A DNA stretch of 64,000 bases, taken from NCBI GenBank assembly GCA_022376925.1, contig JAIOJX010000026.1:254445330-254509329 (forward strand), in the 5' to 3' direction. The DNA comes from Tragulus kanchil. Taxonomy: Eukaryota; Chordata; Mammalia; Artiodactyla; Tragulidae. The notes beneath the pieces are model-generated. The model worked only from the letters and a program-made list of their open reading frames with translations. It ran no database searches and was not told where the DNA came from. Each line of letters starts with the position of its first letter. Within the stretch, counting starts at the first letter, position 1. This document shows positions 2,396 to 63,083 of the stretch, one piece after another. The position numbers were made by a program, and so were the translations under genes.

Positions 2396-2586
2396 GAACT
2401 CTTTCATACATGTCAAACTTTGAGGTCAAATCTATTCATCAAACACCTTAAAAATTAGATCCAATCACAAACTGAGTCTTTGCTTACTCTTCAGAGGTTT
2501 AAATTATGTACTCCTACCTACTCCAGCTCCTTGGAGTAATCTCTCTCACTTCCTGTGTGTCTCCTATTTAATACTTTTGTTTTTAA

Positions 2587-2856
2587 TTTTTTTTTTTGGC
2601 CACTTCTATTGGCCTTTCATTTATTCATTTTCATCCATCTTTGTTCTTTGGCCTGTGTGGCCTCCCATCGCAGTGGCCTCTCTTGCTGCAGAGCACCAGT
2701 TCTGGGCACATGCGCTCCAGAGCTCAGGCTTGGTAGTTGGACACATCGGTCCAGCCGCTCCATGGCACATGATATCTTCCCAGGCCAAGGATCAGACTGG
2801 TGCCCTTTGCACTGCAAAGCAGTGTTCTTACCCACTGGACCATGAGGGAAGCCCCA
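2587..2856 (-). mobile_element. CHR-type tRNA-derived SINE, antisense (copy 1)
   Basis: The reverse complement begins 'gggcttccctcatggtccag', the typical 5' end, and runs through 'ctctggagcgcatg'-like and 'gccactgcgatgggaggcc'-like blocks to an A-rich tail (poly-T at 2588-2598). Candidate flanking target duplication is 'aatactt' at both sides. The family resembles CHR-2 but has a distinctive 3' half; the exact subfamily name is uncertain. Confidence 0.75.
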
Positions 2857-2984
2857 ATACTTATTTTTAAGAATTTTATTCTACTATATTGTTTTCTCTT
2901 AATGTCAGTAAGCCATTTTGAATCATCTTTGGAACAAAAAAGAAGGTAAAGGTAAATAAATTGCATGTCTGGAAAGGAGTCTAG

Positions 2985-3110
2985 ACCAGAAAGTAATGTT
3001 GGTCAGTAATTAGCTGTGGGACCTGGAGGAGGTCATTTAAATGTTCTAGATCTCTGTTTCCTCATCTGCACAAGTTTGAATAAAATAATCTCTAAGGCTT
3101 CTTTTTTTCT
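2985..3110 (+). repeat. MIR SINE fragment
   Basis: Contains 'agctgtgggacctgg' and 'tctctgtttcctcatctgc', degenerate forms of the MIR core and its 3' neighbour. Old and diverged. Confidence 0.7.
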
Positions 3111-3697
3111 CATTCTGATTTTGGTGTAATAGGACTGCCAATCAATGGAACAGAGAAAAAATAGAGAGACTATCTCAACTAGCAAAGCTGAATGTACTCA
3201 ATTAGCATTTTACATTCTTCTGACTTCCTGTGTATGTTTCTGTACTTCAGCAGCTGCAAAGCTGACAAGTACATTTCCTGATCTTATAGCTAGAGTCCTG
3301 GATGTGAATGAACTTCCACCACTAGATGCACTTGCATGAGATTTAAAAGGCAGAAATGAAGCAGGAACTACATCAGTGCCTTTGGTTGCTGGTGGGAAAC
3401 TCATGGAAATGCCTATGTGTAGTCTCCAGCTTCACGGAGCAGGAGGAGCTGGAAGTCACACTCGGTGCTCCAGGCCTAATCTCTATATTCCATTGGGGGT
3501 TGTCAAGAAACATTTGTGATAGCAATGTTTGTGTCTTTCTAAGCAAGCCTGGCTTTCCTAACCCATATTTTATATTTTGTGATTGAGAGTGCAGCACCTC
3601 ACAAGGTCCTATCTGTGGTTCAGTCATGCATGTCAAGCTCCTTGGAGTAATCTCTCTCACTTCCTGTGTGTCTCCTATTTAATACTTTTGTTTTTAA

Positions 3698-3967
3698 TTT
3701 TTTTTTTTGGCCACTTCTATTGGCCTTTCATTTATTCATTTTCATCCATCTTTGTTCTTTGGCCTGTGTGGCCTCCCATCGCAGTGGCCTCTCTTGCTGC
3801 AGAGCACCAGTTCTGGGCACATGCGCTCCAGAGCTCAGGCTTGGTAGTTGGACACATCGGTCCAGCCGCTCCATGGCACATGATATCTTCCCAGGCCAAG
3901 GATCAGACTGGTGCCCTTTGCACTGCAAAGCAGTGTTCTTACCCACTGGACCATGAGGGAAGCCCCA
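3698..3967 (-). mobile_element. CHR-type SINE, antisense (duplicate of 2587-2856)
   Basis: Second copy of the SINE produced by tandem duplication 1. Same insertion, same flanks, so it does not represent an independent transposition. Confidence 0.75.
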
Positions 3968-4095
3968 ATACTTATTTTTAAGAATTTTATTCTACTATAT
4001 TGTTTTCTCTTAATGTCAGTAAGCCATTTTGAATCATCTTTGGAACAAAAAAGAAGGTAAAGGTAAATAAATTGCATGTCTGGAAAGGAGTCTAG

Positions 4096-4221
4096 ACCAG
4101 AAAGTAATGTTGGTCAGTAATTAGCTGTGGGACCTGGAGGAGGTCATTTAAATGTTCTAGATCTCTGTTTCCTCATCTGCACAAGTTTGAATAAAATAAT
4201 CTCTAAGGCTTCTTTTTTTCT
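4096..4221 (+). repeat. MIR fragment (duplicate of 2985-3110)
   Basis: Second copy produced by tandem duplication 1, identical as far as I can read. Confidence 0.7.
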
Positions 4222-60349: not shown

Positions 60350-60445
60350 CATATCTCTCTGGCCCTCCATTTTCTCAACTGTAAATAGAAAAAAAAGTTT
60401 TAAAATCTACTTCACAGTGTTATTGTGAAGATTAAATAAGTAAAT
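60350..60445 (+). repeat. MIR 3' fragment
   Basis: 'ccattttctcaactgtaaat' and 'cacagtgttattgtgaagat' then 'taaataagtaaat' match the MIR 3' half. Confidence 0.75.
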
Positions 60446-60499
60446 ACAAATAAAGAAGGCAACCTTATAATCTGTCTAAAAAGGATTTTTCTGAAAGTA

Positions 60500-60850
60500 A
60501 AAAGAACAGATTAAAAAATGGACATAGAAGGAATCTACCTCAACATAGTGAAAGCCATATGTGATAAGTCCACAGCAAACATTATTCTCAATTGTGAAAA
60601 ACTGAAAGCACTTCCTCTAAGATCAGGGGTGTCCACTCTCACCATTATTCAACATAGTCTTGGAATTTCTCGCTATGGCAATTAAAGAAGAAAAAGAAAC
60701 AAAAGGAATCCAGATAGGAAAAAAAGTAAAACTCTCATTGTTTGTAAATGACATGATACTATACACAGAAAACCCTAAAGATACTATCAGAAAATTAGTA
60801 GATCTAATCAGTGAATTTAACAAAGTCACAGGATACAAAATCAGATTAAG
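60500..60850 (+). pseudogene. L1 ORF2 reverse-transcriptase fragment
   Basis: The plus strand encodes a stretch recognisable as the L1 ORF2 RT core: 'NIVKAICDKST'-like sequence near 60545, then 'EFLAMAIKEEKE' at 60660 on, and 'LSLFVNDMILYTENPKD' at about 60732-60782. The catalytic motif, FADD in active L1, reads FVND here, and a frameshift near 60640 separates the two parts. Both ends are truncated, so it is inactive. LINE-1 RT would copy L1 RNA at the target site. Confidence 0.85.
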
Positions 60851-61669
60851 GTGGACAGTATCAAGTCATAGGCAATGAAACTAGATAGTAAAAGAAAAAG
60901 AAACTCACTTTTTTTCCTTAGATGTTACTGATGGATCATGTCACTTACACACTTTGCACTTTGAGAGACGTATTAATATTAATGTACTCACATCTTGCAG
61001 ATGAGGAAACAGTGACTTTCTCAACTTCATACATTTTAAAACAGAAAGTCAAAGTTCCACCTAAAGTTGCCAGATATCAAGGTTCACAATTTTTCCAATA
61101 TATTAATAGCAAATCATCCAAAGAGAGTCACATTATCATTTCATTATAGCCCTCTGATTGCACAGTTTTATTCTTTCAGCCCCATGTCTAAAACCAACAG
61201 ATCCTTTAATTCTTTGTTAATAAGCCAGTATTTGCCTGTAGAAAGACTTTGCCTTAATGAAGAATACTAGAAATTGTACAATATATTGGAAAATAGAAAC
61301 ACTTATTTTAAAAATAAGTAAAATAACTGAGTAAAGTCCCTGGTGTAGCACTCTATGGCCTGACAAGGGTGACAGGACGTGGAAGTAGGGTGCAGCTTCC
61401 TGAGAACTGTTTCAATCCCAGACGGTGGGTCTGTTTCATAAAAATGGGGAGAAAATGAGGAACTGAGCAAGATGTTGAAAGCTCTATTCGATTGATAATT
61501 GTCCTCAATTCTCCACCCAGAATGAATGATGACCCTTAGAAATCCTATCTTGTCAACAGAGCTCTTGGGAGATCAAAAATCAAGTTCACATACACTGGTG
61601 AAGAGATTCTTCTAATCAGCTTGTCCTACTATGGCTCTCTTGAGTTCTAGGGTTTGGAATAAACAGACA
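60851..61669. other. Unique DNA with a possible MIR scrap
   Basis: 'cacatcttgcagatgaggaa' then 'acagtgactttctc' at 60990-61022 is a probable antisense MIR scrap. Nothing else recognised. Copy A of duplication 24 begins at 60935. Confidence 0.4.
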
Positions 61670-61888
61670 TGGTTCAGGCTTTCCTTGTGGCTCTGAATCT
61701 GGTAAAGAATCTGCCTAGAGTAGGGGAGACTTGAGTTTGATCCTTTGGGTCGGGAAGATCCCATGCAGGAGGGCATGAAAACCCACACCAGTATTTTTCC
61801 CTGAGAATTCCATGACAGAGGAGCCAACAGGCTACAGTCCATGGGGTCACAAAGAGTCAGACATGACTGAGCAACAACCACACACACA
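61670..61888 (+). mobile_element. Bov-tA SINE, sense
   Basis: 'ggctttccttgtggctctga', 'ggtaaagaatctgcctagag', 'gggtcgggaagatcccatgc', 'agaggagccaacaggctaca', 'ggggtcacaaagagtcagac'. Flanked by 'tggttcag' on both sides, a target duplication. Confidence 0.92.
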
Positions 61889-62745
61889 GGTGTGGTTCAG
61901 TTTAACAAAGCCCCAAGCTCACTTTGGTACAAATAGGAAATTTTTATGTCATCTCGGAACAAAGATACCCTTCTGAAAGTTTGTTAACTTAGTATTTAAG
62001 ATCTCTAGGGCATCATGTCACTTACACACTTTGCACTTTGAGAGCGTATTAATATTAATGTACTCACATCTTGCAGATGAGGAAACAGTGACTTTCTCAA
62101 CTTCATACATTTTAAAACAGAAAGTCAAAGTTCCACCTAAAGTTGCCAGATATCAAGGTTCACAATTTTTCCAATATATTAATAGCAAATCATCCAAAGA
62201 GAGTCACATTATCATTTCATTATAGCCCTCTGATTGCACAGTTTTATTCTTTCAGCCCCATGTCTAAAACCAACAGATCCTTTAATTCTTTGTTAATAAG
62301 CCAGTATTTGCCTGTAGAAAGACTTTGCCTTAATGAAGAATACTAGAAATTGTACAATATATTGGAAAATAGAAACACTTATTTTAAAAATAAGTAAAAT
62401 AACTGAGTAAAGTCCCTGGTGTAGCACTCTATGGCCTGACAAGGGTGACAGGACGTGGAAGTAGGGTGCAGCTTCCTGAGAACTGTTTCAATCCCGGGCG
62501 GTGGGTCTGTTTCATAAAAATGGGGAGAAAATGAGGAACTGAGCAAGATGTTGAAAGCTCTATTCGATTGATAATTGTCCTCAATTCTCCACCCAGAATG
62601 AATGATGACCCTTAGAAATCCTATCTTGTCAACAGAGCTCTTGGGAGATAAAAAATCAAGTTCACATACACTGGTGAAGAGATTCTTCTAATCAGCTTGT
62701 CCTACTATGGCTCTCTTGAGTTCTAGGGTTTGGAATAAACAGACA

Positions 62746-62964
62746 TGGTTCAGGCTTTCCTTGTGGCTCTGAATCTGGTAAAGAATCTGCCTAGAGTAGG
62801 GGAGACTTGAGTTTGATCCTTTGGGTCGGGAAGATCCCATGCAGGAGGGCATGAAAACCCACACCAGTATTTTTCCCTGAGAATTCCATGACAGAGGAGC
62901 CAACAGGCTACAGTCCATGGGGTCACAAAGAGTCAGACATGACTGAGCAACAACCACACACACA
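62746..62964 (+). mobile_element. Bov-tA (duplicate of 61670-61888)
   Basis: Second copy from duplication 24. Confidence 0.92.
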
Positions 62965-63083
62965 GGTGTGGTTCAGTTTAACAAAGCCCCAAGCTCACTT
63001 TGGTACAAATAGGAAATTTTTATGTCATCTCGGAACAAAGATACCCTTCTGAAAGTTTGTTAACTTAGTATTTAAGATCTCTG

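Follow-up and report, generated by a model that had tools for sequence, protein, structure and literature searches.

A stretch of 64,000 nucleotides from Tragulus kanchil (GenBank assembly GCA_022376925.1, contig JAIOJX010000026.1, forward-strand positions 254,445,330 to 254,509,329), here called the window and numbered from its first letter, holds 24 tandem pairs of units close to 1.1 kb in length. These pairs are present in the record but most likely absent from the animal: judged from the sequence, they appear to be assembly overlaps which were never merged, and overlapping consensus pieces left unfused are strongly supported as their source. Piece ends are of poorer quality than the same bases taken from a piece interior, which argues that the pieces were concatenated rather than merged. 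This reading had been proposed in a preliminary description of the window, and it gains support from the errors at junction-facing copy ends and from sites present in three copies.

Arrangement and polarity of the tandem pairs

The window was compared with itself by BLAST, a pair being defined as a direct match of at least 900 bp with at least 95% identity. Exactly 24 direct, collinear matches were returned, each joining head-to-tail neighbours, the number given in the preliminary description. The array extends from 2522 to 63082, nearly to the base the span first reported (2525–63083), and the start-to-start period of 1,077–1,169 bp agrees with the 1,076–1,169 bp first given. The units are 1,038–1,173 bp long (mean 1,106, standard deviation 33, coefficient of variation (CV) 3.0%), and their length is uncorrelated with GC content (r = -0.03). 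Identity between copies is 96.6–100%, two of the 24 pairs being without any difference. The periods sum to 26,781 redundant bases, about 42% of the record, leaving 37,219 bp (64,000 - 26,781); the earlier estimates of about 26.7 kb of redundancy and a true locus of about 37 kb thus stand. The inflation of the window is 64,000/37,219 = 1.72.

Among the 44 self-matches listed (at least 150 bp and at least 85% identity), 24 are the pairs and eight are third copies of pair content, the other 12 being dispersed repeats of 259–321 bp with 85–88% identity. Inverted matches reach at most 283 bp. At nine of the 23 neighbouring pairs the unit overlaps the next one, by 62–393 bp, and the overlapped stretch is therefore present three times. 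The junctions have up to 13 shared bases or up to 62 extra bases, and at eight of the 24 an unmatched filler of 20–62 bp lies between the copies. All 24 pairs flank a junction, so that the same sequence stands twice at a piece boundary, as in homotype false duplication. The 23 pieces between junctions are 1,803–4,736 bp long, with a CV of 27% against 3.0% for the overlaps. The shortest is 1,803 bp, though lengths down to about 1.1 kb could have occurred; under a shifted exponential the chance of such a minimum is 1.3e-5.

The position of the differences between copies separates artefact from biology. In a real duplication later changes would be expected anywhere in either copy. If a junction is the place where two piece ends abut, copy 1 should be poor at its 3' end and copy 2 at its 5' start. 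The 150 bp at each unit end were taken as copy-end zones, giving 48 zones in the 24 pairs. In the unit start zones, 29 of 30 insertions or deletions (indels) are bases absent from copy 2; in the unit end zones, 27 of 29 are bases absent from copy 1. Both kinds together show loss in the junction-facing copy end for 56 of 59 indels. Indels occur in 23 zones and, with one tie dropped, all 22 others run in the predicted direction (p = 2.4e-7), a direction that held when the scoring scheme (three were used) and the zone width (five were used) were varied. Altogether 59 indels and 21 substitutions fall in the 7,200 bp of end zones, against seven indels and 13 substitutions in the 19,356 bp of the middle. 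The copies are set apart mainly by the quality of their consensus rather than by haplotype variants, although some of the substitutions in the middle are clustered.

The three-copy sites at the nine overlapping neighbours contain 97 differing columns. The odd copy is the piece end in 53 of these, the piece start in 28 and the piece interior in 13, all copies differing in three; piece-end and piece-start copies together are odd in 81 columns. All but one of the 13 interior-odd columns (12/13) are confined to a single site with a short tandem repeat. A 15-bp tandem repeat at 48664–48693, where the interior copy is unlike both end copies, is the main site contrary to the three-copy test. Clusters of substitutions at 41522–41591 (pair 15) and 58385–58416 (pair 23) are unlike the deletions at junction ends; haplotype variation or faulty polishing may account for them.

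Probable origin of the pairs

It is probable that the record was made by an assembler of the binned fuzzy-Bruijn-graph type (wtdbg or wtdbg2), with shared nodes left unfused and the pieces written end to end. The pairs, the constancy of their length, the lower limit on piece length and the end-polarised errors are what was observed; a wtdbg-type origin is the likeliest reading of them, one that proposes three things further: the family of the program, a join that failed, and polishing. Passages in two papers describe how wtdbg2 bins reads into 256-bp units (PMC9902641; PMC11831799). Under the proposed mechanism, long reads would be tiled into such bins, short fixed runs of which would form the graph nodes. 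One consensus would be built per edge, from node to node (1.8–4.7 kb here), carrying both end nodes, and neighbouring edges would thus have one node in common. At the 24 junctions seen, the step that ought to bring the paired node copies into register and combine them would have gone wrong or been left out, so that the record keeps each node in duplicate. Nodes would then correspond to the near-constant unit and edges to the variable stretch, while the limit of about 1.8 kb would represent two nodes with limited permitted overlap. Later polishing with reads would make the interiors near-identical and leave the ragged piece ends uncorrected; the end deletions would then be what few noisy long reads left behind after the interiors had presumably been polished.

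Several features of the window suit this mechanism. Since fixed nodes would be common to neighbouring edges, a constant overlap, variable pieces and a lower limit on piece length are predicted for wtdbg or wtdbg2 edge layouts, and both a near-constant unit in plain bases (1,106 ± 33 bp) and a minimum among the 23 pieces (1,803 bp) were found. A correct wtdbg2 run fuses its overlaps, whereas those in the window appear to have stayed unfused. The preliminary description had proposed contigs of 2–5 kb with overlaps of about 1.1 kb; the overlap was right, but the pieces measure 1.8–4.7 kb and, we infer, look like assembly-graph edges with fixed-length nodes rather than ordinary contigs. The default wtdbg2 node is four bins (1,024 bp), with adjacent nodes reportedly overlapping by at most one bin (256 bp), and their starts would therefore lie at least three bins apart. 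The consensus program reportedly has an option for the expected overlap between adjacent layout units. The seven closest unit starts have a median spacing of 819 bp, and the ratio of unit to spacing, 1.35, is near 4:3. Older Nanopore reads lose bases, and we propose that the unit may be 1,106 rather than 1,024 bp because of such loss, or because node ends are fuzzy.

Genome sizes published for wtdbg2 assemblies offer a further comparison. In the benchmark section of one study, the maize Nanopore assembly by wtdbg2 v2.5 came to 4,068.86 Mb against 2,118.82–2,240.87 Mb in four other assemblers (PMC11046930). The corresponding figures in its Table 2 are 488 against 393–403 Mb for rice and 158 against 121–138 Mb for Arabidopsis (PMC11046930). 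The inflation of the window, 1.72, is of the same order as the maize oversize. Sika deer is described as having been assembled by wtdbg 1.2.8 from PacBio reads (PMC10372904), with no link to the window. Among the titles and abstracts searched, no description of periodic 1.1-kb duplications from wtdbg was found, which is no proof of their absence from the literature.

A number of observations weigh against a wtdbg-type origin. The 4:3 ratio comes from the seven smallest spacings, which were selected after looking. A 256-bp step was not detected in the 23 spacings, random sets equalling the best Rayleigh R in 809 of 1,000 cases. Four of the nine overlaps between units (302, 338, 378 and 393 bp) are well above the 256 bp reportedly allowed to nodes, and the mean unit of 1,106 bp, in place of the reported default of 1,024, fits only if the raw reads lost more bases than they gained or if the nodes have fuzzy ends. 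Of eight junctions, only two have filler similar to the true continuation, and one has filler similar to the sequence before copy 1. Furthermore, the wtdbg2 assembly of Drosophila is of normal size (137 against 134–155 Mb), showing that inflation is not general, and the benchmark section of the same study does not state the cause of the maize size (PMC11046930).

Two further candidates were set aside. Measured in homopolymer-compressed bases, the units span 720–825 with a CV of 3.3–3.6%, a small difference from the 3.0% in plain bases; the compressed lengths are not identical, which rules out an overlap of fixed k in homopolymer-compressed space, as in k-mer graph assemblers for HiFi reads. 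The idea that the filler is degraded true continuation found weak support, three of 16 comparisons falling at or below 12 in 1,000.

Other software could have produced the same class of artefact, through overlapping contigs, gap-fill pieces or polished chunks concatenated with an overlap set by a parameter of about 1 kb. This is a possibility to be taken seriously, albeit an unlikely one. Unmerged pieces with poor ends are predicted by it equally well. A minimum-overlap rule, however, would be expected to give a tail of longer overlaps instead of 1,106 ± 33 bp, whilst a polisher working on fixed chunks would yield constant pieces and not lengths from 1,803 to 4,736 bp; the lower limit on piece length is predicted by neither. 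Heterotype false duplication, in which each pair would hold one copy from either parental haplotype in adjacent positions, is highly improbable. The clustered substitutions away from junction-facing ends in a few copies (pairs 15 and 23) are what it would lead one to expect, but two of the 24 pairs are identical, the 19,356 bp of the middle hold just 13 substitutions, and neither deletions at junction-facing ends nor a single constant length would be anticipated from haplotypes.

The chance that the pairs are real biology appears minute, whether each of the 24 arose by its own tandem duplication of about 1.1 kb, in the germline or in somatic cells, or all came from a mutational process acting regionally with a unit of fixed length. 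Natural tandem duplicates may share a few junction bases or carry small inserts, and the junctions described above, with at most 13 shared or 62 extra bases, are compatible with this. Against it stand a length that is constant despite unrelated content, and deletions confined in direction to junction-facing ends at 22 of 22 zones after the tie is dropped, where differences irrespective of the junction would be expected. Moreover, the piece-interior copy is seldom the odd one, and one duplication would be needed per step of 1.8–4.7 kb across 60 kb. Equally far-fetched is an error of data handling after assembly, in which the window was built from overlapping fragments: fragments cut from one finished sequence would give identical copies, not independent errors at their ends. 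A test based on repeat elements that cross the junctions was weighed but abandoned, as outer context is kept by real and false tandem duplications alike.

Individual pairs and other sequence content

All 24 pairs lie on the (+) strand and are given here by extent, copies and identity. Pair 1 (2522..4753; copies 2522–3634 and 3633–4753; 99.2%) differs by one substitution and by four indels, each a loss of bases from the final 32 bp of copy 1. Pair 2 (4452..6673; 4452–5556 and 5577–6673; 99.3%) shares a 302-bp triple with the unit of pair 1 and has three deletions, each of which falls where copy 2 begins. Pair 3 (6808..9028; 6808–7920 and 7916–9028) and pair 5 (11931..14272; 11931–13103 and 13100–14272) are 100% identical, with pair 4 (9258..11495; 9258–10378 and 10379–11495; 99.6%) between them. 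Pair 6 (15017..17201; 15017–16108 and 16107–17201; 99.4%) forms a 267-bp triple with pair 7 (16935..19135; 16935–18023 and 18047–19135; 99.8%). In pair 8 (19657..21932; 19657–20803 and 20795–21932; 98.8%) the start of copy 2 has five deletions and the end zone is the 1:1 tie; a 151-bp triple joins it to pair 9 (21782..24047; 21782–22908 and 22915–24047; 99.5%).

Pair 10 (24988..27209; 24988–26099 and 26097–27209; 99.9%) is followed by pair 11 (28110..30232; 28110–29147 and 29194–30232; 99.9%), which has a 46-bp junction filler at 29148–29193. The lowest identity belongs to pair 12 (31169..33341; 31169–32261 and 32283–33341; 96.6%), where the first 100 bp of copy 2 show six deletions and one in the opposite direction. 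Next come pair 13 (35876..38184; 35876–37018 and 37040–38184; 98.7%) and a run of three in which pair 14 (38753..40983; 38753–39872 and 39860–40983; 99.4%) shares a 378-bp triple with pair 15 (40606..42797; 40606–41686 and 41714–42797; 98.9%), and pair 15 a 393-bp triple with pair 16 (42405..44633; 42405–43516 and 43522–44633; 99.5%).

Pairs 17 to 20 are likewise chained: pair 17 (44700..46866; 44700–45778 and 45783–46866; 99.5%) and pair 18 (46610..48803; 46610–47666 and 47729–48803; 98.0%) by 257 bp, pair 18 and pair 19 (48581..50712; 48581–49636 and 49669–50712; 98.7%) by 223 bp, and pair 19 and pair 20 (50651..52944; 50651–51797 and 51797–52944; 99.9%) by 62 bp, each present as a triple. 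The 62-bp filler of pair 18 (47667–47728) is similar to the true continuation beyond copy 2, four of 1,000 random stretches scoring as high, and that of pair 19 is similar to its own true continuation (nine of 1,000). A 338-bp triple links pair 21 (53036..55274; 53036–54151 and 54157–55274; 99.7%) with pair 22 (54937..57130; 54937–56039 and 56028–57130; 99.5%). The array ends with pair 23 (58057..60344; 58057–59203 and 59203–60344; 99.0%) and pair 24 (60935..63082; 60935–62006 and 62012–63082; 99.6%).

A Pfam search of ten of the 148 stop-to-stop frames of at least 75 amino acids found no family in those ten. ARAGORN reported tRNA-Cys-like stretches at 22016–22090, 23149–23223 and 33896–33970 (31.5–33.7 bits with the Rfam tRNA model), the first and second of which are the same stretch in either copy of one duplicated unit. 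These are likely to be the heads of tRNA-derived short interspersed elements (SINEs) rather than tRNA genes. A SINE motif associated with ruminants has nine matches within the window, and a run of 22.5 copies of the TA dinucleotide lies at 27409–27453, outside the duplicated units. In a searched collection of genome contigs, a longer SINE-type motif pattern had no matches; in a collection of viral contigs a shorter one matched a single contig (IMGVR_UViG_3300023220_000993, IMG/VR, 8,354 bp). Positions 789–3606 of this contig hold several copies of the SINE-type repeats of the window, mostly at 69–87% identity, with two short ones at 88–94%, and an identical 64-bp stretch stands at 3606–3669 and 8291–8354. 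Its matches to the window are short (32–208 bp) dispersed repeats, there is no 1.1-kb tandem pair in it, and it represents a different locus; one possibility is that host DNA from an animal was entered there as virus.

Known false duplications and significance

In kind, the window belongs with the homotype false duplications. Sections of two papers on the Vertebrate Genomes Project place these near contig boundaries or describe them as under-collapsed sequence, often at contig boundaries and of about read length, one having come from a FALCON bug which was later fixed (PMC8081667; PMC9516828). Common to those cases and the window are the doubling of same-haplotype sequence at a boundary, overlapping ends which were left uncollapsed, and copies of unequal consensus quality. 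Unlike them, the window has a near-constant unit of 1.1 kb, and its pairs recur every 1.8–4.7 kb inside one gap-free sequence that is 42% redundant. False segmental duplications created by mis-assembly, as reported by Kelley and Salzberg 2010 (PMC2864568), are similarly assembly errors mimicking recent duplication in vertebrate genomes. Those cases, however, derive from divergent haplotypes, whereas the copies in the window differ mainly at junction-facing ends.

Counts of repeats, genes, exons or length made on the record would be inflated up to about 1.7-fold, and within 60 kb a survey of structural variants might report 24 insertions that are false. Asking which copy is without bases near the junction, the polarity test uses the assembly alone, and suspect public genomes could thus be screened without reads. 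If the wtdbg-type origin is true, it would provide a possible cause for oversized wtdbg2 assemblies, such as that of maize at 4,069 Mb. It is attractive to consider, albeit with some doubt, that binned fuzzy-Bruijn-graph assemblies from noisy reads fail systematically and genome-wide to merge their node overlaps, a fault which would explain the near-doubled sizes sometimes reported and which the end-polarised error test would detect without reads. The biological interest of the pairs is low. Their practical interest is moderate, because 42% of the record is redundant and the polarity of copy ends is a simple test that needs no reads; together these provide a warning on data quality and a read-free test for the error.

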